From: Acinetobacter harbinensis
GTDB lineage: Bacteria > Pseudomonadota > Gammaproteobacteria > Pseudomonadales > Moraxellaceae
Length of the DNA stretch: 64,000 nt
Reading direction: 5' to 3'
Assembly: GCF_000816495.1 (NCBI RefSeq)
Contig: NZ_JXBK01000001.1
Location: 438,714-502,713 of the forward strand
The position numbers and the translations under genes are program-made. The notes beneath the pieces were generated by a model. The model was not told the origin of the DNA. It did no database searches and saw only the letters and a program-made list of their open reading frames with translations. Positions 4,101-52,896 of the stretch are shown piece by piece. Each line of letters starts with the position of its first letter. Positions within the stretch are counted from its first letter, which is position 1.

Positions 4101-7100
4101 TGCTGGTCTCAGAAAAGCAACGCGGTAAATTGGCCATTTTAGATGAGCAGCATAAACAGGGTCTGGAATATGTAGGTGTGGCCTTAAATGTGGGTACAAA
4201 TACTATTCGTGTCGAGCAATTAGATTTACTGGGTAATGTACGTGAAAGCCAACAGGTTCAAGTGATTGTTCCAGATGATATTCATCATCTGAAATTACAG
4301 CAACCACTGGCATCGGTGATGGCCAATGGTCGTGATGTGATGCAATTACAGCTACAACTACAGGATAAAAATGGCATCAAGGTTTCCACACGCACTTCAG
4401 TGACCTTAGAAAGCGATATTGGTCTGATTGATCTGCCCGATTTAAATCCGAGTGAGCCGGGGATTCAAACCTTTATTGAAGGCGGTGAGATGATGATTCC
4501 CATCATCGCACCCAATGCACCGGCGCGTGGCACATTACGCGTCAGCAGCGGCCTGCTCAAACAAGCGCTTGATATTCAGTTCCAAGCCGATTTACGTCCG
4601 CTGATCGCCGTTGGTTTGGTTGAAGGGGTGCTTAATTTTAATCATTTTGATGCTCAGCAACTGCACAGTGTGACTCAAAATGATGGCTTTGAAGAACAGC
4701 TTAACGAGATTGCCAATTGGGGCGATGATACGGCGTTGAGCGGCCGTGCTGCGATGTTCCTCAAAGGAAAAGTCAAAGGCGATTATTTGTTAACGCTGGC
4801 TTATGATTCCAGTAAAAGCTCAAAACAGCGCTTGTTCCGCGATATTCAACCGGATGAGTATTATCCCATTTATGGGGATGCTGCGGCCAAAGGCTTTGAT
4901 GCGCAATCGACCAGTAAATTATATGTACGTCTAGACAAAGGCCGCTCGTATGCCATGTACGGCGACTATGTCACGCGTACTGAAAAAGATGAAGGCTTGG
5001 CATTGGGGCAATATAATCGCTCCTTGACTGGGGTGAAAGTCGGTCATGAAAGCGATAAATTACAAGCCTCGGCTTTTGTGGCACAAACCAAATCCCGTCA
5101 GATCGTTACTGAAAACCGCGCCTTAGGGATTTCTGGCCCTTATAGTTTGGGTGCAATTTCCAATGACTTGATTTTAGAAAACAGTGAAAAAGTTGAAGTG
5201 TTAACCCGTGACCGTAACAATCCCGGTTTAATTATTGCCAAACAAACCTTAACGCGTTTTTCAGATTATCAAGTCGACAGCTACAGCAACAGTATTTATT
5301 TAAAACAAGCCGTGGCCAGTGTCGATTCAGAGCTTAATCCGAACTTTATTCGGGTCACAGTAGAAGCGGATGAAATTGGTGATGCGTATTCAGTGGGTGG
5401 TGTGAGTTTTAGCTATGCCGTAAAAAGCCATCTGAAAATTGGCGGTTCATTTGTACAAAGCAATGACCCCCTCCAACATGAGCAAATCGCCAGTTTAAAT
5501 ACTGTGGTTAAAGTGGGACCGTACGGTAAATTGATTGCTGAAGTGGCGCAGTCGAAAAATACCGATAGCAGTATCGATCAAATTGCCTCTATCAATAGCG
5601 AAGGTTTAAGCGATAAAAATCAAGGAACTGCGGCACGCTTAGAGTTTGAATATGCACCAAGTTTTGCCCATGTTCGCGCCTATCATCAACAAGCCCAAGA
5701 CGGCTTTGAAAATGATGCGGCCACCATCAGTGCCGGACGTAAAGAAAGTGGCATAAAAGTATCAGCACCGATTGCTCAAATAGGTTTGGCGCGTTTTGAA
5801 GCAATTCGCACTGAAGATCAAGATAATCATGGCGTCCGTAGCGGATTATCGGCCAGTCTAGAGCGTAATTTTTTTAAAATCTTAGCGCTAGAATTGGGTC
5901 TACGCCATTATGATGAAAGCACTGCCGCAGCCACGTTGGCCACTGAAAATTCAGGCCCTTATAACGGCACAACGGCACGAATTAAATTTACCGGTAACTT
6001 ACCGTGGAAAGGTGCCAGCGCTTTTATTGAATATGAGCAAGATGTATCTAACGCTGATAAACAAGTCTTGTCCCTAGGCGGAACAGCCAAAGTTCTACCG
6101 AATACTGAAGTCTATGCCCGTCATGAATTGATTTCAGCCATTGATGGCTTATATTCACTGAACAGCGCTGAGGAAACCAACAGCACGGTGTTGGGTGTCT
6201 CTAGCAGCTATATGAAAGATGGTTCAGCCTTTAGTGAATATCGGGTTGCCGATGGCATTAGCAACCGTGAAGCGGAAGCCGCTTTGGGTTTACGCAATCG
6301 TTGGCAACTCAAACCACGCGTATATTTAAGCACTAGTTTTGAACGCATTCAAAGTCTGTCCAACAAGGCTGAAAATACGAATAATGATGCCACCGCGGCA
6401 ACGCTGGGTTTAGAATATTTGGTGCATGAGAATTGGAAAGCCACCACACGTTTAGAGGCGCGCCGTTCAGACAGCGCAGATACCTTAATCAATAGCGTAG
6501 GTTTTGCACGTAAATTAAATGATGATGCGACGCTTTTAACTAAAAACACCTTGAATTGGGTTGACAATAAACAGGCCGAGCAAGGCGATCATCTGCGCAA
6601 TCGTTTCCAGTTGGGTTTGGCGTGGCGTGATGATGCTGAAAATAAATTAGATATTTTGTCTAAAGTGGAATATTACTACGAACACAATGCCACAGATTTA
6701 GAGGCCGAATTTAAGCGTCAGGCCTATGTCACGTCTATTCATAGCAACTATCATCCTGAGCAGCGTTTGACGCTATCCAGTCAATATGCTGCAAAATGGT
6801 CAGTATTGAATGAGTACGATATCTCTAGCAATGCTTTAACTCAATTGCTCAGTGGCCGTGCAATGTATGACCTCAATGAACGTTGGGATATGAGTATACA
6901 AGCGGGCGCTTTATGGGCCAATCATGGCGCAGGAACACGCTATTTAATAGGTGCAGAGTTGGGCTATTTACTCAGTACCAATCTTTGGGTTTCGGCGGGC
7001 TATAATCTTTTAGGTTATCAGGACAATGAGTTGGCCAATACCAGCTCCAATGGGCAAGGCGCGTATTTAAAATTTAGATTCAAATTTGACGAAGATTTAT

Positions 7101-7153
7101 TTGCTCGCCCTCTCAAAAATAACACGGCTTTAGCATCAACGCAGGGACGATAG
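1142..7153 (+). CDS. Giant DUF11/SdrD-like surface protein with C-terminal outer-membrane barrel
   Basis: This 2003-residue protein starts with a signal peptide (MKKAISKK, then a hydrophobic stretch ending near SYAA). I chose ATG 1142 over the in-frame TTG at 1136 because a G-rich ribosome site ends 7 bases before it. Residues to about 450 are repeat domains with a calcium-loop-like DANNDGVFDLSD motif. Residues about 613-740 form a DUF11 domain, and about 748-800 an SdrD B/Cna-B-like domain (VYNDCNANGMQDKGELG). After a linker, residues from about 1160 to the end consist of alternating aromatic/polar strands and finish in a short aromatic strand (YLKFRFKF), as outer-membrane beta-barrels do. 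I infer a barrel-anchored surface protein that may display or secrete the two flanking repeat proteins. No characterised homologue is recognised. Confidence 0.8.
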   Translation: MKKAISKKVETLSLTALASAMLLAQHSYAAMPAAGQMIQNIAYASYEVSDSNGEQLLKSTQSNAVNIEIAKFYTLELLADQLKQVEAGSKVIWLNQLTNTSNTDAWFDFKTIAVNHLSNVKIYLDANNDGVFDLSDRLIKEGLLLQPNQTVHLWVVAETSLQTPDQQKLVLPLVAQIREEPQQQKTAEDTVQVFEAKLKIEKTVDQPLLSMNHQAQSLNYTLTVSNSSALPVSPASISVDGQKQAWLIVEDALPANTIFDAIQILEPASTAVVLHKLAEGQYSSHIPNDKTQISHAVVAYKNAFAAGQSSSIKLSVKTLASISATTLLNQAYVLHQTGQVDKKTLSNTVETQVLGKASLDSTTADFKTDLYSGKVNDVIYLKSNAAVCNANRFSQEQVRIRIESKLTGDVVVVSAIESAANSGVFQFSLKTEENSVKNLNDTVLQTLKRDDVTARLLDCVDAQGQITTPINDVATQILIDPYGIVFDAKTQKPVAGATVILVDENDQPVGNNVAFEVDRTTGALRSMPAKQVTSATGEFVYPQVIAGNYKLLVDTSSISSRQYSFVSDQALYPIASFNGMAVNAEYSYGGVFSLSSTSPALNIDIPIDPQLTQSSLVVQKTARDSSIELGDFTNYSITVSNQGDVLAREVKLQDTLPRGFSYVPNTMRVDGKPVADPVGGKGPYLTLGLGDLAVNASAKIEYRVLVGPNALNGDGINRARVVDRSGLSSNEAQAKVNVRAGVFSADAFVVGKVYNDCNANGMQDKGELGVSGVRIYMEDGSYVITDREGKYDFYGVSAKTHVLKVDRTTLPVGTVLIRQSNRNADDPSSRFVDVKRGELHRADFALTDQNGSCSSTLIETLKQRQQNINRSNFNLEKAINQQLSIEAPSYLTRSTRSENSQGCLASNNEQNCLLNATNPVNTQAQQLAINPLKPTTWVNLEDYLKRSDSNHLEILNLKQGQVLPFAQTSIQVQGAAGATQRVLVNAVLVSEKQRGKLAILDEQHKQGLEYVGVALNVGTNTIRVEQLDLLGNVRESQQVQVIVPDDIHHLKLQQPLASVMANGRDVMQLQLQLQDKNGIKVSTRTSVTLESDIGLIDLPDLNPSEPGIQTFIEGGEMMIPIIAPNAPARGTLRVSSGLLKQALDIQFQADLRPLIAVGLVEGVLNFNHFDAQQLHSVTQNDGFEEQLNEIANWGDDTALSGRAAMFLKGKVKGDYLLTLAYDSSKSSKQRLFRDIQPDEYYPIYGDAAAKGFDAQSTSKLYVRLDKGRSYAMYGDYVTRTEKDEGLALGQYNRSLTGVKVGHESDKLQASAFVAQTKSRQIVTENRALGISGPYSLGAISNDLILENSEKVEVLTRDRNNPGLIIAKQTLTRFSDYQVDSYSNSIYLKQAVASVDSELNPNFIRVTVEADEIGDAYSVGGVSFSYAVKSHLKIGGSFVQSNDPLQHEQIASLNTVVKVGPYGKLIAEVAQSKNTDSSIDQIASINSEGLSDKNQGTAARLEFEYAPSFAHVRAYHQQAQDGFENDAATISAGRKESGIKVSAPIAQIGLARFEAIRTEDQDNHGVRSGLSASLERNFFKILALELGLRHYDESTAAATLATENSGPYNGTTARIKFTGNLPWKGASAFIEYEQDVSNADKQVLSLGGTAKVLPNTEVYARHELISAIDGLYSLNSAEETNSTVLGVSSSYMKDGSAFSEYRVADGISNREAEAALGLRNRWQLKPRVYLSTSFERIQSLSNKAENTNNDATAATLGLEYLVHENWKATTRLEARRSDSADTLINSVGFARKLNDDATLLTKNTLNWVDNKQAEQGDHLRNRFQLGLAWRDDAENKLDILSKVEYYYEHNATDLEAEFKRQAYVTSIHSNYHPEQRLTLSSQYAAKWSVLNEYDISSNALTQLLSGRAMYDLNERWDMSIQAGALWANHGAGTRYLIGAELGYLLSTNLWVSAGYNLLGYQDNELANTSSNGQGAYLKFRFKFDEDLFARPLKNNTALASTQGR

Positions 7154-7214
7154 AACATGACCGTACTTAATTTATCGTTCGCGCTAGAACAACCAAACGT
7201 GCAGGTGAACTAAG

Positions 7215-10091
7215 ATGATCAAGCCATACACAGCTTTTATTTTGGCATCTTCATTTTTATTGTTGAGTACCATGCCACACGTTTATGCAGATGAAAATCT
7301 ACCGGCATCCAATACACGGATTCAGCGTAGTTTTGTAAATATGGATTTACAAACGCCAACGATTACTAACAATTATACTTTATTGGATGCCAATCCTAAT
7401 TTGTTTGGTACAGGAAACTATATTCCAGGTTGGAGAACGACACATACGTCCAGAAATAACATTAATTTTCCTATGGAATTTTGGAAAGGAGGTGGTCCTG
7501 ATGGAGTAGCGAATAATCCAAATGTCACTAGCAATGCGAGTAACCAATATATTGAATTAAATGCAGAGGAAGTATCAAATATTTATCAGAGTATTTGTTT
7601 GCTTCCTGATGATAGTTTTACTTGGAGCTTTGATCATGCAACTCGAAGTTCAAAAGATGAAAAGGCTGAATTTTATATTGGTCAAGTGAATGGAAGAGCC
7701 GTTACTAGGACTAAATCTATCGGTTCTAGTCCAATACATACTACAGTAAAAACTTGGCTTAATACTGGACTTAAATCTTTTTCAATGGCTGGTATCATTC
7801 CAGCAGCTGGAAAATATGAATTTATATTCCAAGCAACACAATGGAATAATGTGACATATGGTAACTTTATTGATAACGTAAAGATTAAATTAAGACCAGC
7901 GATAGAATTTTCCGCTAATAACAATACAGTAATTGAGAATCAGACCAGTGGTTATCATGCAGTGGAATTTAATATCGTTGGATTTGTAGATGCTGATTTC
8001 GATGTGGCGTTTACGATTGACAATACCGCATCAATTAATCCTGCCATATATGGTACAGATTATAAAATATTTAATAAAAACTCTGGTACAGCGGTAGAAA
8101 TAATCCCTGTCCTCAGTGCTGATTCTAAAAAACTTAGCTTTAAATATAAAGTTAAATATAACCCAAGTTTAAATTATGCAACTGGAGTAAAAATTACTGA
8201 TTTGGTTATTCAAGTCATTAATAATAATAATAAGGAAGGCAATAAAACCATTCCATTTATCTTGGATAAAACCCAGACCACCATTGCCGTGATGGCTTTG
8301 AGTGAATGTGGTGGAAATGTTCCTAATGGTTTTAATTACACCATCGAGGATGATGATGTCGATTTAAGGATTACTAAAAAAATCAATGAGACTATTCCTT
8401 TGCCAGGAAGTTTATCTTCATATGAGATGGTACTTTTTAATGACAGTAAAGCGCTTGCAAAGAATGTGAAACTGATAGATGTGTTGGGTGCCAATTTAGC
8501 CGTAACGGTAAATACTGAGTTGACATGTAAACTGACCGATCAAAATGGAATAGAAGTTGAGCAGACCTGTGAAGCGCTACTTTCAGGTTTGAGCACGGGA
8601 AATACTAAAACATGGGCTAGTCAGTTATTAAGTACGAGCGGTTTAGCATTGGGCAACGTGCCTGCTAACCAATACTTTAAATTTACGCTAAAAAATTTAA
8701 TCGTTAGCACAACAGACAAAGAAACCACTCAAGCAAATAAGAATTATATTATCAATAATATAGAAGTTAAGACCGATTCTACAGATCAAAATTTAGCCAA
8801 TAATATCGCGATTGCCAAAACTATGTATGCAGCTCAAAGTGATTTATCGAATAATATTTTGGTCACTGCAAATAATCTCACCGGTACAGGCATGTTCATC
8901 ATTGGTAAAGAGGGCAGAACAGGAACTACCCCACTTTGGACACAAAAAACAGAAGGCAGTAAAGCGTATTTTCCTTTAAAGATTCAAAACTCTGCTGCAC
9001 TTGTACAAGACTATCAACTGTATGCTTCAAGCAGTAAAGTTGAACCGACCTTAATCAGCGGTGACTATTCAACCTTGGTTAAAAATAGCATTACTCCATT
9101 TACTTCAGGGCTGAAAGTGGAGTTCTATAAAGTAGAGGCTGGACAATGTAAAGTCGGTCTGACTGGTCAGCAAATCACTCAACTTAATATTGCAGCCAAT
9201 ACGGTAGGGCAAGTTTGCGCTGTCGTCACAGTCTCTGCCTCGATCACTAGCACTACCAATATTTGGTTTGCCATTGAATCCCTACAATCGGGTTTAGGCG
9301 ATATTATTTTAGATGCCGTGATAGCACCGCCCAAACTGCGTTCCTTGGAACTCAGCAATGACCAAACCGCACAGGTGGCTGTGGGGGGAACCTATGTATT
9401 TTTACACCGTCTCACCAACACCGGTGTAGACGATGAAAAGCTCAGTCAACTAAATTTAGTGCGGCCCAATGATGGTTTTTTATATACTTTATTCTTAGAT
9501 AAAAATAAAAATGATGCCTTAGATGCCGGCGATACGCTGTTGGTGACTGGAACAGAATCTGAACTCACGAATTTTATTCTTCAACCCAATCAATCAATGA
9601 GTGTATTGATTAAGGTCGAAGCACCTTTAACCGCAACGCATGGTATGAGCAGTCAAGTGAAGGTAGTGGCCAGCGCCAATAATGATGGCAAGGCGACTGT
9701 ACTTTCCGCTTTGAGCAATACCGACTCCATTATTGTTAGTCCCAATCAATTACAAATTCTGAAATCGCAATTTAAAGTGGAGAAATGCGATAACGATATG
9801 AGCGGTATTATTATCGGAGCCGCTTATAGCTTAAAGAATGAAAATTTAAAGCCCAATCAATGTTTGATTTATCGGATTGCGGTTAAAAATATGGGCAATA
9901 GTGCATTAAATGATGTAACGATTAATGATATGTATCCGGCTTATACTGAAAAATGGACTTGGGGCGAAAAATTACCAATGACTAGTAGTGGCGAAAGGGT
10001 GCAAATGGACGGGGAAAAATTAAAAACTGTTTTGAGTGAACTGTTACCGCAACAAGAAAAGTCCTTATATTTCGGAATCAGAGTGAAATAG
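7215..10091 (+). CDS. DUF11-type secreted repeat protein
   Basis: The 958-residue product has a signal peptide ending near VYADEN. The ATG has an AGGTG ribosome site 7 bases upstream. It lies 61 bases after the barrel gene with no terminator between, so the two are probably co-transcribed. The N-terminal 200 residues look like a carbohydrate-binding or jelly-roll type beta domain (tentative). The middle holds a DUF11 repeat (about residues 390-540). The C-terminal 250 residues match the paralogous gene at the window start: a calcium-loop-like LDKNKNDALDAGD motif, then a final repeat with two Cys (VEKCDNDMSG and PNQCLIYR). The AT-rich first half (about 7.3-8.3 kb) differs in base use from the barrel gene, which suggests a variable domain. 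Function unknown; probably surface-exposed. Confidence 0.75.
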   Translation: MIKPYTAFILASSFLLLSTMPHVYADENLPASNTRIQRSFVNMDLQTPTITNNYTLLDANPNLFGTGNYIPGWRTTHTSRNNINFPMEFWKGGGPDGVANNPNVTSNASNQYIELNAEEVSNIYQSICLLPDDSFTWSFDHATRSSKDEKAEFYIGQVNGRAVTRTKSIGSSPIHTTVKTWLNTGLKSFSMAGIIPAAGKYEFIFQATQWNNVTYGNFIDNVKIKLRPAIEFSANNNTVIENQTSGYHAVEFNIVGFVDADFDVAFTIDNTASINPAIYGTDYKIFNKNSGTAVEIIPVLSADSKKLSFKYKVKYNPSLNYATGVKITDLVIQVINNNNKEGNKTIPFILDKTQTTIAVMALSECGGNVPNGFNYTIEDDDVDLRITKKINETIPLPGSLSSYEMVLFNDSKALAKNVKLIDVLGANLAVTVNTELTCKLTDQNGIEVEQTCEALLSGLSTGNTKTWASQLLSTSGLALGNVPANQYFKFTLKNLIVSTTDKETTQANKNYIINNIEVKTDSTDQNLANNIAIAKTMYAAQSDLSNNILVTANNLTGTGMFIIGKEGRTGTTPLWTQKTEGSKAYFPLKIQNSAALVQDYQLYASSSKVEPTLISGDYSTLVKNSITPFTSGLKVEFYKVEAGQCKVGLTGQQITQLNIAANTVGQVCAVVTVSASITSTTNIWFAIESLQSGLGDIILDAVIAPPKLRSLELSNDQTAQVAVGGTYVFLHRLTNTGVDDEKLSQLNLVRPNDGFLYTLFLDKNKNDALDAGDTLLVTGTESELTNFILQPNQSMSVLIKVEAPLTATHGMSSQVKVVASANNDGKATVLSALSNTDSIIVSPNQLQILKSQFKVEKCDNDMSGIIIGAAYSLKNENLKPNQCLIYRIAVKNMGNSALNDVTINDMYPAYTEKWTWGEKLPMTSSGERVQMDGEKLKTVLSELLPQQEKSLYFGIRVK

Positions 10092-39583: not shown

Positions 39584-39982
39584 CTAACCTTGCTGATTCT
39601 GAATGTATTGTTTAATTATTTCTAGAGGCGCACCACCACAAGACCCTGCAAAATATGAACGTGACCATAAAACAGGTTTTGCATAACTCCCCCTTAAATC
39701 TAAAAATTCATTTCTCATTCTTCTACTTGTTACAGATTTTAAATTATTGACCAACTTGCTTAATTGTACCGTTGGTGGGTACTGAATTAGCATGTGAACG
39801 TGATCGGATTCACCGTTGCATTCCTTTAATTCAGCATTAAAATCCTTGCATATTTCAGCAGCACACTCACTAAAATATTGATGATGTATTTCACCTAGTA
39901 TTTTCTTGCGATACTTTGTGATGAAAACTAGATGGACATGCAAATTAAAGGCTGAATGTCGGTTTTTATATATCTCACTCAT
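39584..39982 (-). CDS. tnpA: IS200/IS605 transposase TnpA (Y1 HUH)
   Basis: TnpA cuts and joins single-stranded element ends through a 5'-phosphotyrosine. The 132-residue protein has the HUH motif at 61-63 (DHVHMLI) and the catalytic Tyr126 in the C-terminal helix (EIIKQYIQNQ). The family N-terminus (FNLHVHLVFITKYRKK) is present and the length is normal. All key residues are intact, so it should be active. It is divergent from tnpB with about 60 bases between the start codons. Confidence 0.96.
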   Translation of the reverse strand: MSEIYKNRHSAFNLHVHLVFITKYRKKILGEIHHQYFSECAAEICKDFNAELKECNGESDHVHMLIQYPPTVQLSKLVNNLKSVTSRRMRNEFLDLRGSYAKPVLWSRSYFAGSCGGAPLEIIKQYIQNQQG

Positions 39983-40041
39983 TGAGAGTACTTGCTTTAT
40001 ATAGTAACATTACCGCTATATTAGCAGATACACACTCATTG

Positions 40042-41349
40042 ATGAAGATTAACAAAGCGTATAAATTTAGGCTTGAGCCTAATGCGGATCAGGAGGTTGT
40101 TTTAAACAATCTTGTTGGTTCTGCACGTTTTGTTTGGAATCATATGTTAGTACTTTCATTTGAAATGCTTGCTCGAAATGAACACATTAATGCAGTAAAT
40201 TTAGTGAATAAGATTACAGTACTGAAAAAGAATCCTGAATATGCTTTTCTAGCATTACATTCAAATGCTGTTTCCTTACAGCAAAAAGTACGTGACCTTG
40301 CTTCGGCATGGGGTAAGTTTTTTGACACAAAAGAACATGCTCGATTAAAAGAAAATAAGCGCAAACCAAAGAAACCTAAGTTCTTTAAATTGAATGACGG
40401 TACTGAAATTCAGTTGCGTCCACTGATGCCTAGATTTAAGAAAAAATCAGACGGTTATGATTCGATTCGGCTTGTTCAATTCGATAAATACTGTTGGATT
40501 AAAGGCAATAAACTTAAGCTTCCTAACGGTGTTGGTGTTGTTAAATTTAGAAAATCACAAGACATTTTAGGCACAATCAAAAATGTGACCATTAGCAAGG
40601 TATCAGGACGTTGGTATATTTCATTCTGCACTGAAAAAGAACTGACTGAAATGCCAATTCACCCCTCTAAATCTGCAATTGGTGTGGATTTAGGTGTTGC
40701 TAAATTAATCACAACTTCTGATGGGCAGGTGTTTGAGCCCAAGAATAGTTTTAAAGCTAATCAATTTAAATTGGCTAAACTTCAACGGAAGCTGAGAAAG
40801 AAAACCAAGTTCAGCCAAAATTGGAAGAAACTGAATCAAAAAATCAATAAATTGCATCATCATATTGCCAATATTCGGCATGACTACTTGCATAAGATCA
40901 CTACAACACTCAGCAAAAGCCACGCAATGATTGTCGTTGAGGATTTGAAAGTAGCCAATATGTCGAAATCAGCAAGCGGAACACTTGAGAATAAAGGTCG
41001 AAATGTTAAAGCCAAATCAGGCTTAAATAAATCAATCCTAGATCAAGGTTGGTCAATGCTTGTTGGTATGCTTGATTATAAGCAGAAATGGCGAGGTGGT
41101 TTGCTTGTTAAGGTTGACCCTAGATACACAAGTCAAAAGTGTAGCTCTTGTGGTCATATTGCAAAAGAAAATAGGCAAACTCAGACTAAGTTTGAGTGTG
41201 TCGCATGTGATTTTGTTGCGAATGCGGATTTAAACGCATCAAGCAACATTTTAGCGGTGGGACATACCGTTTTGTCTGTGGAGGGAGGATGCAGTAAGGG
41301 TCACCCTGTGAAGCAGAAAGCAAGTGAAATCCGCAAGGAAGTCGCCTAA
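40042..41349 (+). CDS. tnpB: TnpB RNA-guided endonuclease of the IS605-type element
   Basis: TnpB uses an RNA from the element's right end to cut double-stranded DNA and aids element retention. The 435-residue protein has an N-terminal helix-turn-helix region (NKAYKFRLEPNADQ). The RuvC acidic residues are all intact: Asp216 (GVDLGVAK), Glu300 (IVVEDLKVANM) and Asp396 (ADLNASSNIL). A zinc finger is formed by Cys367, 370, 386 and 389. I start at ATG 40042; the longer frame begins at a TTG overlapping tnpA. Nothing is truncated, so it is probably active. Confidence 0.95.
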   Translation: MKINKAYKFRLEPNADQEVVLNNLVGSARFVWNHMLVLSFEMLARNEHINAVNLVNKITVLKKNPEYAFLALHSNAVSLQQKVRDLASAWGKFFDTKEHARLKENKRKPKKPKFFKLNDGTEIQLRPLMPRFKKKSDGYDSIRLVQFDKYCWIKGNKLKLPNGVGVVKFRKSQDILGTIKNVTISKVSGRWYISFCTEKELTEMPIHPSKSAIGVDLGVAKLITTSDGQVFEPKNSFKANQFKLAKLQRKLRKKTKFSQNWKKLNQKINKLHHHIANIRHDYLHKITTTLSKSHAMIVVEDLKVANMSKSASGTLENKGRNVKAKSGLNKSILDQGWSMLVGMLDYKQKWRGGLLVKVDPRYTSQKCSSCGHIAKENRQTQTKFECVACDFVANADLNASSNILAVGHTVLSVEGGCSKGHPVKQKASEIRKEVA

Positions 41350-47058: not shown

Positions 47059-48858
47059 ATGTTCCATTTAGCAAAAGAACTGTTTGCCTTATTAACTCCT
47101 AGCCAGCGCCGACGCTACTTATCTTTGCAGGTTATGGTTTTTTTTATGGCTATTATGGAATTATTGGGTATAGCTTCTATTGCACCATTTATGGCCCTCG
47201 TAGCAGATATGCAACTACTTGAAACTAATGCAATGCTTAGTAAGATTTACTTAGCGAGTGGTGTAGATACTCACAAAGAATTTTTATTTATAGCAGGTCT
47301 TGTTGTTCTTTTAATGCTGAGTATTGCCTCTATATTATCAATCATTACTACATGGCGCTTATCTTTATTTGCCTTTTCTGTTGGTACAGAAATAGGCGAT
47401 CGTTTGTATCGCTATTATCTGCACCAAGACTGGCTGTTTCACGCCTGTGGTAGCAGTGCTCAGTTAACTAAGCAAATTGCTACTGAATCTATGCGAGTTA
47501 CAAACTTTATTATTCTTCCGTTGATCCAGATGAATGCCCGCTTTATTTTAGCTGTAGTTATTTCAGTTGGTATTTTTATTTATAATCCACTGATAGCAAC
47601 TGTAGGTGTTGTACTATTTGTTAGTGGGTATATGATTGTTTATAAAATCATACGCAAGCGTATTACACGCTACGGTGAAAATGTATCAACTGCATCAACT
47701 GATCGTTTCCGTTTAATGAATGAGGGTTTTGGCGGTATTAAAGACGTATTGCTTTATAATCGCAATCATGATTTTGTTGAGCAATTTGAACACAGTGGAA
47801 GAGTTCTTGCGCGCGCTCAAGGTGTAAACACCGCATTAAGCCAAGCACCGCGTTACTTAATGGAGTTGCTGGCTTTTGGTGCATTAATTAGTTTAGTTTT
47901 AGTACTACTCACCACGCATAACGGTGCATTGAGCCAAGTTCTCCCTGTATTGGCCGTGTATGCATTGGCAGGATTTAAACTTTTACCAGCGCTACAGCAG
48001 ATATACGCTAGTATTACTTCAATTAAAGGTAACACGGCTGCCTTCGATGCGATCAAAATAGATTTACTGGCGTCTAAAGCCGAAGAGAGCGAAAAAACTC
48101 CTATTTCAGCTACTAATGATTTAACAGCAATCAGTCACATTCGATTTAATAATGTAAGTTTTACGTATCCTAATAAAAAAGATCCAGCGCTCAATGGCAT
48201 AAACATTGCAATACCTATTAAAGCTACTGTTGGCTTTGTAGGCGAATCAGGCTCAGGTAAATCGACAGCAATAGACTTACTGCTTGGTTTAATTGAGCCA
48301 ACTATGGGTCAACTTATGTTGGACGATATAATCATTGACCATAGCAACAAGCAAGCTTGGCAAAAGCACATAGGCTTTGTACCGCAAAGTATTTTTTTAA
48401 GCGAAGGCACTATTGCTCAAAATATAGCGTTTGGTTTAAATAATAAAGATATTGATTTAGATAAATTAAATCAAGCTATTAAGCTTGCTCATCTTGATTT
48501 ACTCGTTAATAGCTTACCTAAAGGTTTAGACACCAAGGTTGGTGAACGTGGTGTTCAGCTGTCTGGTGGCCAGCGCCAACGAATTGGTATTGCTAGAGCG
48601 TTATATAATCAAGCGAATGTGTTGGTGTTTGATGAGGCTACAAGCGCATTGGATGGTATCACTGAAAAAGTGATTATGGATGCTATCCAAGAAATGAGTG
48701 GTCAAAAAACGATTGTAATGATTGCACACCGATTAAAAACGGTGAAAAACTGCGATATTATTTATCTTATGGAGCAAGGCAAAGTTGTTGATCAAGGTAC
48801 TTACCAGCAACTTATAGACAGTAACCTAAAATTTAAAAAAATGGCGGAACATGCTTAA
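47059..48858 (+). CDS. PglK-like ABC transporter, candidate lipid-linked oligosaccharide flippase
   Basis: This 599-residue protein fuses a six-helix ABC exporter membrane domain (residues 20-330) to a nucleotide-binding domain. Walker A is GESGSGKST, the signature LSGGQRQRIGIAR, Walker B VLVFDEATSALD, and the switch His IAHRL. The membrane part resembles Campylobacter PglK, including MAIMELLGIASIAPFMALV and the loop YALAGFKLLPALQQIYASI. PglK flips undecaprenyl-linked oligosaccharide. No Wzx is found among the other capsule genes here, so this protein may replace it. Its end overlaps the next gene by eight bases, tying it to the aldolase cassette. Export of another substrate cannot be excluded. 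Confidence 0.85.
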   Translation: MFHLAKELFALLTPSQRRRYLSLQVMVFFMAIMELLGIASIAPFMALVADMQLLETNAMLSKIYLASGVDTHKEFLFIAGLVVLLMLSIASILSIITTWRLSLFAFSVGTEIGDRLYRYYLHQDWLFHACGSSAQLTKQIATESMRVTNFIILPLIQMNARFILAVVISVGIFIYNPLIATVGVVLFVSGYMIVYKIIRKRITRYGENVSTASTDRFRLMNEGFGGIKDVLLYNRNHDFVEQFEHSGRVLARAQGVNTALSQAPRYLMELLAFGALISLVLVLLTTHNGALSQVLPVLAVYALAGFKLLPALQQIYASITSIKGNTAAFDAIKIDLLASKAEESEKTPISATNDLTAISHIRFNNVSFTYPNKKDPALNGINIAIPIKATVGFVGESGSGKSTAIDLLLGLIEPTMGQLMLDDIIIDHSNKQAWQKHIGFVPQSIFLSEGTIAQNIAFGLNNKDIDLDKLNQAIKLAHLDLLVNSLPKGLDTKVGERGVQLSGGQRQRIGIARALYNQANVLVFDEATSALDGITEKVIMDAIQEMSGQKTIVMIAHRLKTVKNCDIIYLMEQGKVVDQGTYQQLIDSNLKFKKMAEHA

Positions 48859-50473
48859 TATGAATAATTTGATTTTTCTGGACTGTACTTTCCGTGACGG
48901 TGGTTACTACAATGCATGGGACTTTTCATCTGAATTGATAAACGACTATCTCATCGCTATGCAAGCAGCCGGTATAAATGCTGTTGAGTTAGGTTTTCGT
49001 TCTCTTAATAACAAAGGTTTTAAAGGTGCTTGCGCATTTACTTCTGATGATTTCTTGCGCAGCTTACCTTTGCCTGAAAACCTAACCATTGGTGTCATGT
49101 TAAACGCCAATGAGTTGGTAGGCGATATAGCGCAAGAAGAGGTACTCGCTCAATTATTTCCAGTATCGGCCGCCGAATCACCTGTTGATTTAGTCCGTAT
49201 TGCTAGTCATTTGCATGAGTTTGAGCAGGCTTTACCTGCTGTGACTTGGTTGAAAGAACGCGGTTATCAAGTTGGTTTTAATTTGATGCAGATCGCTGAT
49301 TGTCCAGAGCAAGAAGTGAAAGCGCTGGCTCGGCTAGCTAATAGCTATCCTTTAGATGCGCTGTATTTTGCTGATAGCATGGGCAGCATGAGTCCAGATC
49401 AGGCCGCGAAAATTGTGGGTTGGTTGCGTAGTGAGTGGCAGGGTGCATTAGGGATTCATACGCATAATAATTTAGGTCTTGCGCTCTCTAATACATTACG
49501 AGCTTTAAACGAAGGCGTCACTTGGGTTGATGCAACTGTTACAGGTATGGGGCGCGGTCCTGGTAATGCATTAACTGAAGAGTTGGCAATAGAGATAGCT
49601 GAATCTCGTCAGCAAAAAGTTAATTTGGTTCCACTGATGGGGCTTATTCGTAAGCACTTTCGCCCGATGAAAGAAGCCTACGGCTGGGGTACTAACCCTT
49701 ATTATTATCTTGCCGGTAAGTACGGTATTCACCCAACCTATATTCAAGAAATGCTTAATGACTCGCGTTATAGCGAAGAAGATGTGCTGGCTGTCATTGA
49801 GCATTTACGTATCGAAGGTGGTAAGAAATTCAGTTTGAATACCTTAGATACCGCACGTCACTTTTATCGTGGTGAGCCTCAAGGGCAATGGTCTCCTCAA
49901 GCTCTTTTTGCTGGGCGAGATGTGTTGCTTTTGGGTACAGGGCCGGGCGTTGAACAGCACCGTTCAGCGTTAGAAAGTTATATACGCCAAGCTAAACCTT
50001 TGGTGTTGGCATTGAATACGCAAAGTGCTATTGCACCAGAGTTGATTGATGTGCGTGTGGCTTGTCATCCTGTGCGCTTATTAGCTGATTGCGAAGCGCA
50101 TACTAAATTGCCACAGCCCTTGATTACACCCTACTCAATGTTGCCCGAAGATGTGCAACATGCATTGGCTAGTAAAGAAATTTTTGATTTTGGCTTAAAC
50201 GTACAAGCAGATACTTTCGAGTTTAACGAGACCTATTGTACGACACCGACCTCGTTAGTGATGGCTTATGCTTTTGCGCTTGCAAGTAGCGGAAAAGCTA
50301 AACGCTTGTTGCTAGCTGGTTTTGATGGTTATGAAGGTGAAGATCCGCGTAATTTTGAAATGAATAAAGTTGTTAAAAGCTATACCCAAACAGCTAATAC
50401 GACACCATTACTAGCAATTCTACCAACTCGGTATGATGTCTTTAAACAAAGTGTCTACGGGGAAGTTGAATGA
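48851..50473 (+). CDS. DRE-TIM (HMGL-like) aldolase fused to a GT42/MptE-like domain
   Basis: The 540-residue protein has two parts. Residues 8-280 are a DRE-TIM metallolyase barrel: DCTFRDGGYY supplies Asp11, Arg15 and Asp16, GIHTHNN supplies the metal ligands His203 and His205, and GMGRGPGNA closes the site, as in 4-hydroxy-2-oxovalerate aldolase and HMG-CoA lyase. No LeuA-type regulatory domain follows. Residues about 352-540 form a Rossmann-like domain with LLLGTGPGVEQH and a later SLVMAYAFALASSG/LLLAGFDGY segment. The layout recalls GT42 sialyltransferases and MptE-like (DUF115) proteins. It overlaps the upstream transporter by 8 bases and the downstream cytidylyltransferase by 4. I infer a pyruvate aldolase that makes a 2-keto-3-deoxy sugar acid. 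I know of no characterised close relative. Confidence 0.75.
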   Translation: MLNMNNLIFLDCTFRDGGYYNAWDFSSELINDYLIAMQAAGINAVELGFRSLNNKGFKGACAFTSDDFLRSLPLPENLTIGVMLNANELVGDIAQEEVLAQLFPVSAAESPVDLVRIASHLHEFEQALPAVTWLKERGYQVGFNLMQIADCPEQEVKALARLANSYPLDALYFADSMGSMSPDQAAKIVGWLRSEWQGALGIHTHNNLGLALSNTLRALNEGVTWVDATVTGMGRGPGNALTEELAIEIAESRQQKVNLVPLMGLIRKHFRPMKEAYGWGTNPYYYLAGKYGIHPTYIQEMLNDSRYSEEDVLAVIEHLRIEGGKKFSLNTLDTARHFYRGEPQGQWSPQALFAGRDVLLLGTGPGVEQHRSALESYIRQAKPLVLALNTQSAIAPELIDVRVACHPVRLLADCEAHTKLPQPLITPYSMLPEDVQHALASKEIFDFGLNVQADTFEFNETYCTTPTSLVMAYAFALASSGKAKRLLLAGFDGYEGEDPRNFEMNKVVKSYTQTANTTPLLAILPTRYDVFKQSVYGEVE

Positions 50474-51162
50474 AAAATAAAGTTACCGCCTTTTTACCTT
50501 GTAGAGCAGGTAGTGAAAGAGTACCTCATAAAAATATTAAACCTTTCGCGGGTTACGATTTTGGATTGATAGAAATTAAGCTAAAGCAGCTTCATGAGTC
50601 AAAGGAAATTGATGAGATTGTATTGTCAACGAATGATCTGCATATTTTAAATTATGCACAATCACTTAGTTTAAAAAAATTAAGTATTCATAAACGATCC
50701 GAAGACCTTTCATCTAGTGAAACAAGTACAGATCAGTTGGTAGCTCATGCTTTAGAATTAATTCCAAGTGGTGATATTTTATGGACGCATGTCACTTCAC
50801 CTTTTATAACTGCTAAGCATTACGATGAAATGATTCGTTGTTACTTAGAGAAAAAAACAGAAGGTTTTGATTCGTTAATGAGTGTAACAGAGCTATATGC
50901 TTTTCTGTGGCAAGATAAAAAGCCGTTAAATTACGATAGAAGCATAGAGAAGTGGCCTAGAACACAGACCTTACAGCCTATATCAGAAGTAAATAGTGGG
51001 GTTTTCTTAGCATCTACGAAAGTATATAAAACAAAAAATGATCGCATAGGTGATCAGCCTTATTTGTATAATCTAAATAAACTTATTAGTCATGATATAG
51101 ATTGGCCTGAAGATTTTATTGTCGCAGAGTGTATGGCTGAAAAAGGACTTGTTAAATTATGA
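50470..51162 (+). CDS. CMP-acylneuraminate-type cytidylyltransferase
   Basis: The 230-residue protein has the N-terminal nucleotide loop of CMP-sialic acid/CMP-Kdo synthetases (AFLPCRAGSERVPHKNIKPF), followed by IVLSTNDLHIL, the LWTHVTSPF strand and the SEVNSGVFLAS motif. Such enzymes couple CTP to a 2-keto-3-deoxy sugar acid at the anomeric carbon. It overlaps the aldolase gene and the HAD gene by four bases each (ATGA), so all three are translated together. With no NeuB-like gene in view, its substrate is more likely a product of the aldolase than ordinary sialic acid. The symbol neuA is withheld. Confidence 0.85.
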   Translation: MKNKVTAFLPCRAGSERVPHKNIKPFAGYDFGLIEIKLKQLHESKEIDEIVLSTNDLHILNYAQSLSLKKLSIHKRSEDLSSSETSTDQLVAHALELIPSGDILWTHVTSPFITAKHYDEMIRCYLEKKTEGFDSLMSVTELYAFLWQDKKPLNYDRSIEKWPRTQTLQPISEVNSGVFLASTKVYKTKNDRIGDQPYLYNLNKLISHDIDWPEDFIVAECMAEKGLVKL

Positions 51163-51827
51163 GTTACAGCCTTGAAAAATATAAAACTCTAGTTTTTGAC
51201 TGTGACGGCGTTGTTTTAAACTCCAACAAAGTTAAAACCGATGCTTTTTATCAAGCAGCATTATCGTATGGTGAGCAAGCGGCGCAAGCATTGGTTGAAT
51301 ATCATGTCGCTAATGGCGGTGTGTCGCGTTATAAAAAGTTTGCATACTTTTTAAATACTCTAGTCCCCCAGTATGCAGCAGGAGTCTCCGGCTCAACGCG
51401 TGAAGAGTTGCTCGATGCTTATGCACGTTACGTACTAAAAGGATTGCTAACCTGCGATATCGCAGAAGGCATTCACGAGTTGCGCAAAAACACCCATAAC
51501 ACGAACTGGCTGATAGTTTCAGGTGGCGACCAAGCTGAATTGCGTTATGTATTTGCTGAGCGTGGTTTAGCTGAATACTTTGATGGCGGCATTTTTGGTA
51601 GTCCAGACACTAAAGATGAAATCCTTGAGCGCGAAATAAATAACGGCAATATTCAGCAGCCTGCATTGTTTCTTGGTGACAGCAAATATGATTACCAGGC
51701 TTCTAATGGTGCCGGATTGGATTTTGTGTTCTTGACTGGGTGGACTGAGGTTGAGGGGTGGGAAGAGTGGTGTAATCAATACTGCTTGATAAGTGTTGAT
51801 AGTATTGAAAAATTATTAGGAGCTTAA
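51159..51827 (+). CDS. HAD-superfamily phosphatase of the ulosonic-acid cassette
   Basis: The 222-residue protein has all four HAD motifs: DCDGVVLNS (Asp14 nucleophile, Asp16 acid), VSGGD (Ser121), Lys152 (PDTKDEIL) and GDSKYDYQA (Asp174, Asp178). A helical C1 cap lies between the first two. This is the phosphoglycolate phosphatase-like group of small-molecule phosphatases. Its overlap with the cytidylyltransferase gene suggests it removes phosphate from a sugar-acid phosphate before CMP activation, as KdsC or Kdn-9-phosphatase do in known pathways. The substrate is inferred only from context. Confidence 0.8.
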   Translation: MSYSLEKYKTLVFDCDGVVLNSNKVKTDAFYQAALSYGEQAAQALVEYHVANGGVSRYKKFAYFLNTLVPQYAAGVSGSTREELLDAYARYVLKGLLTCDIAEGIHELRKNTHNTNWLIVSGGDQAELRYVFAERGLAEYFDGGIFGSPDTKDEILEREINNGNIQQPALFLGDSKYDYQASNGAGLDFVFLTGWTEVEGWEEWCNQYCLISVDSIEKLLGA

Positions 51828-52046: not shown

Positions 52047-52098
52047 TTTTACTGGTCTTAATGGGTATTTTTGATTTTTATAAGGTATTTAGGTGCTT

Positions 52099-52896
52099 AT
52101 GTCAATGTTGCGTAAAATATATTGGGCCTTAATAGTGCCTTTTATGAGCTTTTTAGGTTATTTAAAATTAAAATCTATTAGTGAGAAAAAAGATTATCTT
52201 GAATGGAGAGAGTCTTTCAGCGCAAAGAAAGTTTTAATCGTTGGAACAGGACCAAGCCTAGATAATGTTAGTGATGAATATTTTTTAAATTTTGATACTA
52301 TTGTATATATTAATCATGCTATTAAATGTTCGGGTAAAGTAAAGGATGAGTATTTTTTCTCTACTGATGTGGATGTGGTTAAAGGTATAGCTGATAAACC
52401 TTATTTTAAAAAAATTGAGACCATAGGTAAGGTTAAATCAATACTTGCTCCAATTTTTTTTCAGCAAGTATTTTTCTTGAAAGGTAACATTAAAAAAGGT
52501 TTTTCTTGGTTAGTAGCTAGCGAAGCAAGTTATAAAATTCATAGGGTCAGTAAGAGTTTCTTTGATTTTAACTTTCCAGTCACAGCAGTTTTTTGGCCAA
52601 AACAGCCTGATATAAAAGGGTTAGATATTTGGTTTTCACAGAAGCAACAAGTTTGTTTTTTTCCTGTTGTAGAATCAACATCAGCTCTTAGCGCGATTTT
52701 ATTTGTCGCTAAATATAGACCCTTGCAAGTTTCTTTAATCGGGTGTGATTTTGGTGTAGGGAGATCAAAGTCTATAGTAGAGGATTGTCCTGCGCATAAT
52801 GTGAATGTCTTTAGTGAGGCTAGAAATAAATTTAATTATATTAAGAATTATCTATCAAATAAAAATATTCTTTTGACAAATGAATCTTGGAGCTAA
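52099..52896 (+). CDS. GT42/MptE-like protein, candidate CMP-sugar transferase
   Basis: The 265-residue protein opens with a hydrophobic helix (residues 6-24). A Rossmann-like domain follows with KKVLIVGTGPSLDNV near residue 44-58, then TIVYINHAI, and a later STSALSAILFVAKYRPLQ/VSLIGCDFG segment. The GxGPSL loop and the helix-strand-GxDF order match GT42 sialyltransferases (Cst-I/II type) and MptE-like proteins. Right after a CMP-sugar cassette, a transferase for that sugar is the natural role, but catalytic residues cannot be confirmed by eye. I chose ATG 52099, five bases after AGG; a GTG two codons upstream is the alternative. Confidence 0.6.
   Translation: MSMLRKIYWALIVPFMSFLGYLKLKSISEKKDYLEWRESFSAKKVLIVGTGPSLDNVSDEYFLNFDTIVYINHAIKCSGKVKDEYFFSTDVDVVKGIADKPYFKKIETIGKVKSILAPIFFQQVFFLKGNIKKGFSWLVASEASYKIHRVSKSFFDFNFPVTAVFWPKQPDIKGLDIWFSQKQQVCFFPVVESTSALSAILFVAKYRPLQVSLIGCDFGVGRSKSIVEDCPAHNVNVFSEARNKFNYIKNYLSNKNILLTNESWS

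Follow-up and report, generated by a model that had tools for sequence, protein, structure and literature searches.

A putative NeuB-independent route to CMP-activated ulosonic acids in an aldolase cassette of Acinetobacter harbinensis

The described routes to ulosonic acids activated with cytidine monophosphate (CMP) depend on phosphoenolpyruvate (PEP) and include the KdsA-KdsC-KdsB pathway, the route through the 9-phosphate of Kdn (3-deoxy-D-glycero-D-galacto-nonulosonic acid) and the mammalian route through the 9-phosphate of Neu5Ac (N-acetylneuraminic acid). The phosphate is removed in these pathways by KdsC, Kdn-9-P phosphatase or NANP. To our knowledge, all known CMP-ulosonate pathways rest on one superfamily of PEP-dependent synthases. 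Here we consider a three-gene cassette in a stretch of 64,000 nucleotides from Acinetobacter harbinensis (contig NZ_JXBK01000001.1, positions 438,714-502,713; hereafter the window, to which its gene coordinates refer). Judged from sequence, the likely product of the cassette is a 3-deoxy-2-ulosonic acid in CMP-activated form, destined for a capsule or lipopolysaccharide sugar and made without a PEP-dependent synthase. In common with the PEP-dependent pathways it has a polysaccharide setting, a CTP_transf_3 enzyme and, as proposed, the three kinds of step carried out by a synthase, a HAD phosphatase and a cytidylyltransferase. It differs in the enzyme proposed to form the carbon-carbon bond, a DRE-TIM aldolase that also carries a sialyltransferase-like domain, and no NeuB/KdsA synthase accompanies it.

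The cassette consists of three open reading frames on the forward strand, at 48851-50473 (540 aa), 50470-51162 (230 aa) and 51159-51827 (222 aa), which the first-pass annotation had described as overlapping genes for a DRE-TIM aldolase, a cytidylyltransferase and a HAD phosphatase; the coordinates, the Pfam matches and the two four-base ATGA overlaps, at 50470 and 51159, are all confirmed. The aldolase start at 48851 overlaps the 3' end of an upstream ABC transporter gene (47059-48858), and an alternative in-frame ATG at 48860 gives no such overlap. Residues 7-256 of the aldolase match PF00682 (HMGL-like) with 97.2 bits (cut-off 29). The second protein is a CMP-ulosonate-type cytidylyltransferase of the PseF/NeuA type, matching PF02348 (CTP_transf_3; 51.7 bits, cut-off 22.6) and scoring 66.6 bits with the PseF model TIGR03584, under the equivalog cut-off of 205.7. 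The third is a HAD hydrolase of subclass I (PF00702, 45.3 bits, cut-off 26.4; TIGR01549, 27.5 bits, cut-off 23.3) that had no match among PDB sequences at E 0.001; from its family and conserved residues it is proposed to be an ulosonate-phosphate phosphatase.

In the proposed pathway, the metal-dependent DRE-TIM barrel would join pyruvate to an aldehyde sugar, probably phosphorylated; the HAD enzyme would then remove the phosphate, and the cytidylyltransferase, as its family strongly suggests, would add CMP. The CMP-sugar would probably be bound by the C-terminal domain of the aldolase, for transfer or regulation, a role suggested by the predicted fold. Since KdsB-type enzymes fit the same slot in related cassettes, our guess is a Kdo- or Kdn-like product (Kdo, 3-deoxy-D-manno-octulosonic acid) of eight or nine carbons. 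An aldolase-based pathway of this kind had been put forward at first pass. Its independence of NeuB is well supported by comparison, being favoured by the recurrence of the cassette, the refilling of its cytidylyltransferase slot and the genome of Metabacillus litoralis; the pyruvate donor, the phosphorylated aldehyde acceptor and the product are what we infer.

Recurrence of the cassette and its changing cytidylyltransferase

A scan of genome contigs returned 339 relatives, from which the best 80 loci, fetched by the aldolase, were kept. These belong to Gammaproteobacteria, Alphaproteobacteria, Actinomycetota, Cyanobacteriota and Bacillota, that is, to four phyla. More than 1.5 kb of sequence lies downstream of the aldolase in 75 of the 80, and genes were sought there within -4 to +7 kb. 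Co-occurrence of the aldolase with a cytidylyltransferase, a check proposed beforehand, was found in 75/75 loci, a homologous HAD gene in 72/75, and the tight order of aldolase, cytidylyltransferase and HAD in 52/75. Apart from six of the 80 loci and the further locus L044, the DRE-TIM aldolase is the only visible carbon-carbon-bond enzyme of the recurring cassette.

Single residues are conserved as well. With rows scoring under 100 bits excluded from the counts, R12, K21, D209 and D211 are present in 39/39 cytidylyltransferase rows; the HAD protein has its catalytic residues, with D14 and D16 in 73/73 rows and K152, D174 and D178 in 71/73.

What the aldolase makes is argued mainly from the type of cytidylyltransferase that accompanies it. 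Over the 75 loci it is of the PseF/NeuA type in 37, of the KdsB type in 37 (L062 being counted on 32 bits only) and of both in one. On the aldolase tree of 75 rows (39 and 36 by type) this label switches 16 times, and well-supported branches by themselves require at least 10 of the switches. With the labels shuffled, 25.4 switches are needed on average and 0/500 shuffles come as low as 16, so the label is also partly inherited. Both families make CMP-3-deoxy-2-ulosonates, the one kind of product known for either, and their sharing of a single slot therefore points to a product of the CMP-ulosonate type.

The cassette KdsB-type enzymes form a dedicated subfamily, with a mean identity of 67% among themselves against 35% to the KdsB of the window genome, values on which a misread housekeeping KdsB was rejected. 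Two of the 37 were run against the KdsB family models, those of L124 and L082, and passed the subfamily model NF009905 (288.2 and 267.2 bits, cut-off 255) while staying under the equivalog cut-off of TIGR00466 (142.6 and 140.2, cut-off 155.2); the KdsB of the window genome passes both. In the plasmid collection, the best relative after three Leisingera records has 38.9% identity.

Overall, the cassette is conserved but rare and patchy. Among the 248 other genomes of the family, there are four full-length copies of the aldolase and one partial copy. Some aldolase match occurs in 169/249 family genomes, and among the matches listed all those beyond the window and five relatives are shorter, at 22-41% identity and confined to about residues 1-330, and are hence taken to be other DRE-TIM enzymes. 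E. coli genomes gave no DNA match to window positions 48000-51827, and three phage records matched, none covering 80% of the aldolase. On plasmids, one Leisingera record carries all three genes, and two further plasmids have the aldolase and a KdsB-type gene side by side. Barrel-only plasmid relatives from Paraburkholderia, Mesorhizobium and Priestia are shorter proteins of 31-32% identity with no annotated cytidylyltransferase nearby, which indicates that members of the wider family are not in general linked to a cytidylyltransferase.

Possible other sources for the ulosonic acid

Several findings weigh against the proposed pathway. The counts above describe close relatives only, and the gene order is variable, with 23/75 loci departing from the tight order and the cytidylyltransferase lying upstream in six; no HAD gene is in range in L065, L077 and L114 (in L084 it is on the opposite strand). 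The others concern the synthases encoded elsewhere in the genomes, variant loci with a second aldolase, and the aldolase itself.

The alternative that survives best, although unlikely, is that a synthase of the PEP-dependent kind encoded elsewhere, KdsA or NeuB, supplies the cytidylyltransferase, and that the aldolase has another task, such as trimming, recycling or modifying the sugar. The first-pass statement that no NeuB/KdsA-like synthase is visible in the locus holds, given that a hidden Markov model scan for NeuB found no match in the window open frames, that NeuB (PF03102) has none in the window genome either, and that the sole match to TIGR01362 lies about 1.04 Mb away. A synthase elsewhere in the genome had been named as the finding that would undo the proposal, and a KdsA is formally present, as one of three PF00793 proteins (378.9 bits, cut-off 314). 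However, besides the cassette enzyme and a weakly matching protein of 464 aa, the same genome encodes a true KdsB adjoining lpxK, so that KdsA is not needed to feed the cassette.

The wider survey is similarly divided. Among 50 cassette genomes taken from the 80 loci, KdsA exceeds its cut-off in 43, as is expected of Gram-negative bacteria with Kdo, and 19 have a PF03102 match. Seventeen of these are judged real; the other two (Metabacillus and Anabaena) coincide with sub-cut-off TIGR01362 matches. The other 31/50 gave no PF03102 match, in line with the absence of NeuB expected of cassette genomes. Two Nesterenkonia genomes and Garicola have no KdsA match and do have NeuB-type proteins, and a NeuB lies inside the fetched stretch in one of the 80 loci (L065).

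Two genomes speak more directly to the matter. In Metabacillus litoralis (L124), where the cassette KdsB-type enzyme scores 288.2 bits (cut-off 255), neither NeuB nor KdsA was found in what is a draft genome; its sole PF00793 match, also its sole PF03102 match, is a bifunctional DAHP synthase/chorismate mutase, which leaves no known synthase found to feed that enzyme. In Psychrobacter L045, a locus whose contig begins within the aldolase gene, a set of PseB, PseC, PseF, PseG and PseI is encoded next to the cassette; this separate, true PseF scores 367.8 bits and the cassette enzyme 62.1, so that the latter need not be fed by PseI. Together with the cytidylyltransferase that attends every aldolase-fetched locus with room downstream, these cases speak against a synthase elsewhere as the source of the ulosonic acid.

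Quite unlikely, too, is a second alternative in which the product is a short 3-deoxy-ulosonic acid of five or six carbons, or that of a two-step aldol sequence, with an HpcH/HpaI-type enzyme making the aldol bond where present and the DRE-TIM enzyme performing another step. A gene of this type lies between the DRE-TIM aldolase and the cytidylyltransferase in six of the 80 loci (L049, L062, L111, L113, L114, L115) and in L044, Pfam having been run for it on L044 and L049 only, and in these loci the carbon-carbon bond may be formed partly or wholly by an enzyme other than the DRE-TIM one. The cytidylyltransferase is divergent in all seven, scoring 32-136 bits to the profiles used in six and showing 28% identity in L044. 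An Acuticoccus locus (L139) combines an aldolase/citrate lyase family protein with a cytidylyltransferase, phosphoglycerate dehydrogenase (PGDH) and HAD, with no DRE-TIM enzyme among the features listed. On the other hand, no HpcH/HpaI gene is present in the cluster of the remaining 74/80 loci or in the window, and the likewise divergent cytidylyltransferases of L093 and L097 (173 and 169 bits) directly follow the aldolase on its 3' side.

The two domains of the aldolase

The N-terminal part of the aldolase (residues 1-340; 48851-49870) comprises the catalytic TIM barrel and adjoining helices, as supported by an alignment of 59 sequences and by column counts. R15-D16 is kept in 79/81 aligned rows and H203-x-H205 in 81/81 (in L074 and L089 the aldolase match begins only at residue 66-67); with the PF00682 match, these residues place the enzyme in the DRE-TIM metallolyase (HMGL-like) superfamily. 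By sequence and by fold the barrel is nearest to BVU_2661 (3dxi), then to 4-hydroxy-2-oxovalerate aldolases, with Claisen enzymes behind, and it scores 100 bits with TIGR03217 (4-hydroxy-2-oxovalerate aldolase), under the equivalog cut-off of 286. The AlphaFold2 model of the full protein has a predicted local distance difference test (pLDDT) score of 90.1 and a predicted template modelling (pTM) score of 0.69, the latter leaving the relative placement of the two domains uncertain.

The best structural and sequence matches, DmpG/BphI and BVU_2661, thus share with the window enzyme the TIM barrel and the RD and HxH motifs. In contrast to DmpG/BphI, the window enzyme has an extra C-terminal domain and a polysaccharide context besides its sub-cut-off TIGR03217 score, and it carries Tyr19, a tyrosine in 79/81 rows, at the site of DmpG His21, which we take to be the catalytic base. 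The mechanism is therefore not simply that of DmpG, a further point against the proposed reaction. The motifs of pyruvate-type aldolases claimed at first pass are indeed present; but RD and HxH are common to the whole DRE-TIM superfamily, Claisen enzymes included, and alone they are no proof of a pyruvate aldolase. A very unlikely alternative is that the DRE-TIM enzyme instead performs a Claisen-type condensation of acyl-CoA with a 2-oxo acid, of the kind that yields isopropylmalate or phosphonomethylmalate, with CMP placed on another acid or a phosphonate. In its favour, CTP-dependent enzymes of this type are able to activate acids other than ulosonic ones, and the KdsB-type gene of Marinospirillum L077 is followed by genes that read like PEP mutase and phosphonopyruvate decarboxylase (as read from the sequence). 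Against it stand the lead of 4-hydroxy-2-oxovalerate aldolases over Claisen enzymes among the matches and the KdsB-type enzymes in half of the loci, which favour ulosonates. For the window a phosphonate route was rejected, since the PEP-mutase-family matches of its genome, in open frames of 298 aa and 540 aa, are separated from the locus by at least about 1 Mb.

Residues 341-540 (49871-50470) form a separate domain that had been overlooked at first pass and is modelled with a pLDDT of 94.3. It has no Pfam or NCBIfam match at the sequence level; its profile picks out archaeal HPPK among PDB sequences (E 0.0073 over 40 positions), and the domain occurs at E 1e-10 in one of 397 other genomes of a phylum sample. 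Foldseek ranks SteA and archaeal HPPK first. When its candidates were re-aligned with VIA-align, the flagellin glycosyltransferase Maf (5mu5) came top, with Z 14.0 over 185/200 residues at a root-mean-square deviation (rmsd) of 3.2, followed by SteA (12.3), archaeal HPPK (8sd5, 12.0), the GT42 enzyme CstII (1ro8; Z 10.7, 173 residues, rmsd 4.2), a Pasteurella sialyltransferase (10.4) and GT29 sialyltransferases (7-8). The match to the Maf/GT42 fold spans most of the domain, which is thus described as Maf/CstII/MptE-like and as a possible CMP-ulosonate-binding or transferase domain. It differs from Maf and CstII in being fused to an aldolase and in having no sequence-level family match. Against such a role, the fold is common to enzymes that do not use CMP (HPPK, SteA), and Maf and CstII surfaced only in the re-alignment, being absent from the Foldseek rows listed. 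From the modelled fold, the domain probably binds a CMP-sugar, either for transfer or for regulating the enzyme.

A bolder and doubtful proposal is that the cassette represents an undescribed class of CMP-ulosonate biosynthesis found across four or more phyla. A single bifunctional protein would here use a pyruvate aldol reaction to make the ulosonic acid and would handle or transfer the CMP form of this acid through the Maf/CstII-like domain; the configuration of the sugar may then differ from those of Kdo, Kdn and sialic acids. A search of the literature, in which subscription papers and preprints that may hold prior work were mostly beyond reach, gave no description of such a pathway. If true, a second, unrelated carbon-carbon-bond enzyme would serve CMP-ulosonate synthesis, and a class of sialic-acid-like sugars, with members in Gram-positive bacteria and in cyanobacteria, would escape genome surveys based on NeuB. 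Moreover, the aldolase could be leveraged to make unusual ulosonic acids.

Neighbouring genes and variant loci

Family searches of the genes 3' of the cassette identify an MptE-like protein, glycosyltransferases and a weak match to O-antigen polymerase, and sugar-nucleotide enzymes flank the cassette on both sides in a by-eye reading of the translations. The MptE-like/DUF115-type protein (52093-52896, forward strand) scores 18.3 bits with PF01973, under the cut-off of 34.6, and its GTGPSL motif resembles one in the C-terminal domain of the aldolase (hhalign probability 39, over no more than 20 columns). We tentatively consider it a candidate transferase for the CMP-ulosonate. Sequence homology between this protein and the C-terminal domain was rejected, the likeness being confined to the 20-column motif. 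At the edge of the polysaccharide locus, the window open frame at 39982-41349 reads by eye like an IS200/IS605-type TnpB.

Four loci of an unusual type carry a NeuB with an N-terminal GKGPS domain, in proteins of about 510-540 aa whose domain motif is MptE/GT42-like: Nesterenkonia L127 (8025-9611, reverse strand), Halomonas L128 (7325-8857, forward), Garicola L129 (6601-8211, forward) and an Enterobacter plasmid, L137 (6364-7908, forward). An inositol-monophosphatase-type phosphatase gene is adjacent in three of the four and a related cytidylyltransferase is close by in two (L128 and L137); neither was seen beside the NeuB of Garicola. These loci are like the cassette in fusing a GxGPS-type domain to a synthase and in a similar layout of phosphatase and cytidylyltransferase. 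They differ in using a PEP-type NeuB and an inositol-monophosphatase-type phosphatase and in the N-terminal position of the domain, and the profile similarity of the domains is weak; evidence that the NeuB domain is homologous to the C-terminal domain of the aldolase was suggestive at best (hhalign probability 5.3, E 0.0073) and was set aside.

In the Acuticoccus plasmid L139, positions 4201-7362 hold in a row the genes for the aldolase/citrate lyase family protein, an acylneuraminate cytidylyltransferase, PGDH and HAD. The NeuB, HpcH/HpaI and Acuticoccus variants may be loci in which the carbon-bond enzyme has been exchanged or supplemented while the kind of end product has stayed the same.

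A few further observations concern single loci. The phosphonate-pathway-like genes of Marinospirillum L077 (12386-14828), a PEP mutase fusion and a decarboxylase-like protein, lie directly 3' of the KdsB-type gene. The Paracoccus plasmid L136 (3374-5684) has, next to a gene of the acylneuraminate cytidylyltransferase family, one whose annotation is glycosyltransferase family 29 (GT29). A relation to GT29 was considered for nine Marinobacter proteins and is at most a lead: the PDB match to ST3Gal1 is weak (E 0.57) and behind unrelated proteins, the first member matches nothing in Pfam, and GT29 is matched there by none of the nine. These are conserved proteins of 417-466 aa near the cassette in nine Marinobacter loci (alignment A4), among them L076 (11580-12911), with a stretch that by eye resembles a GT29 sialylmotif.

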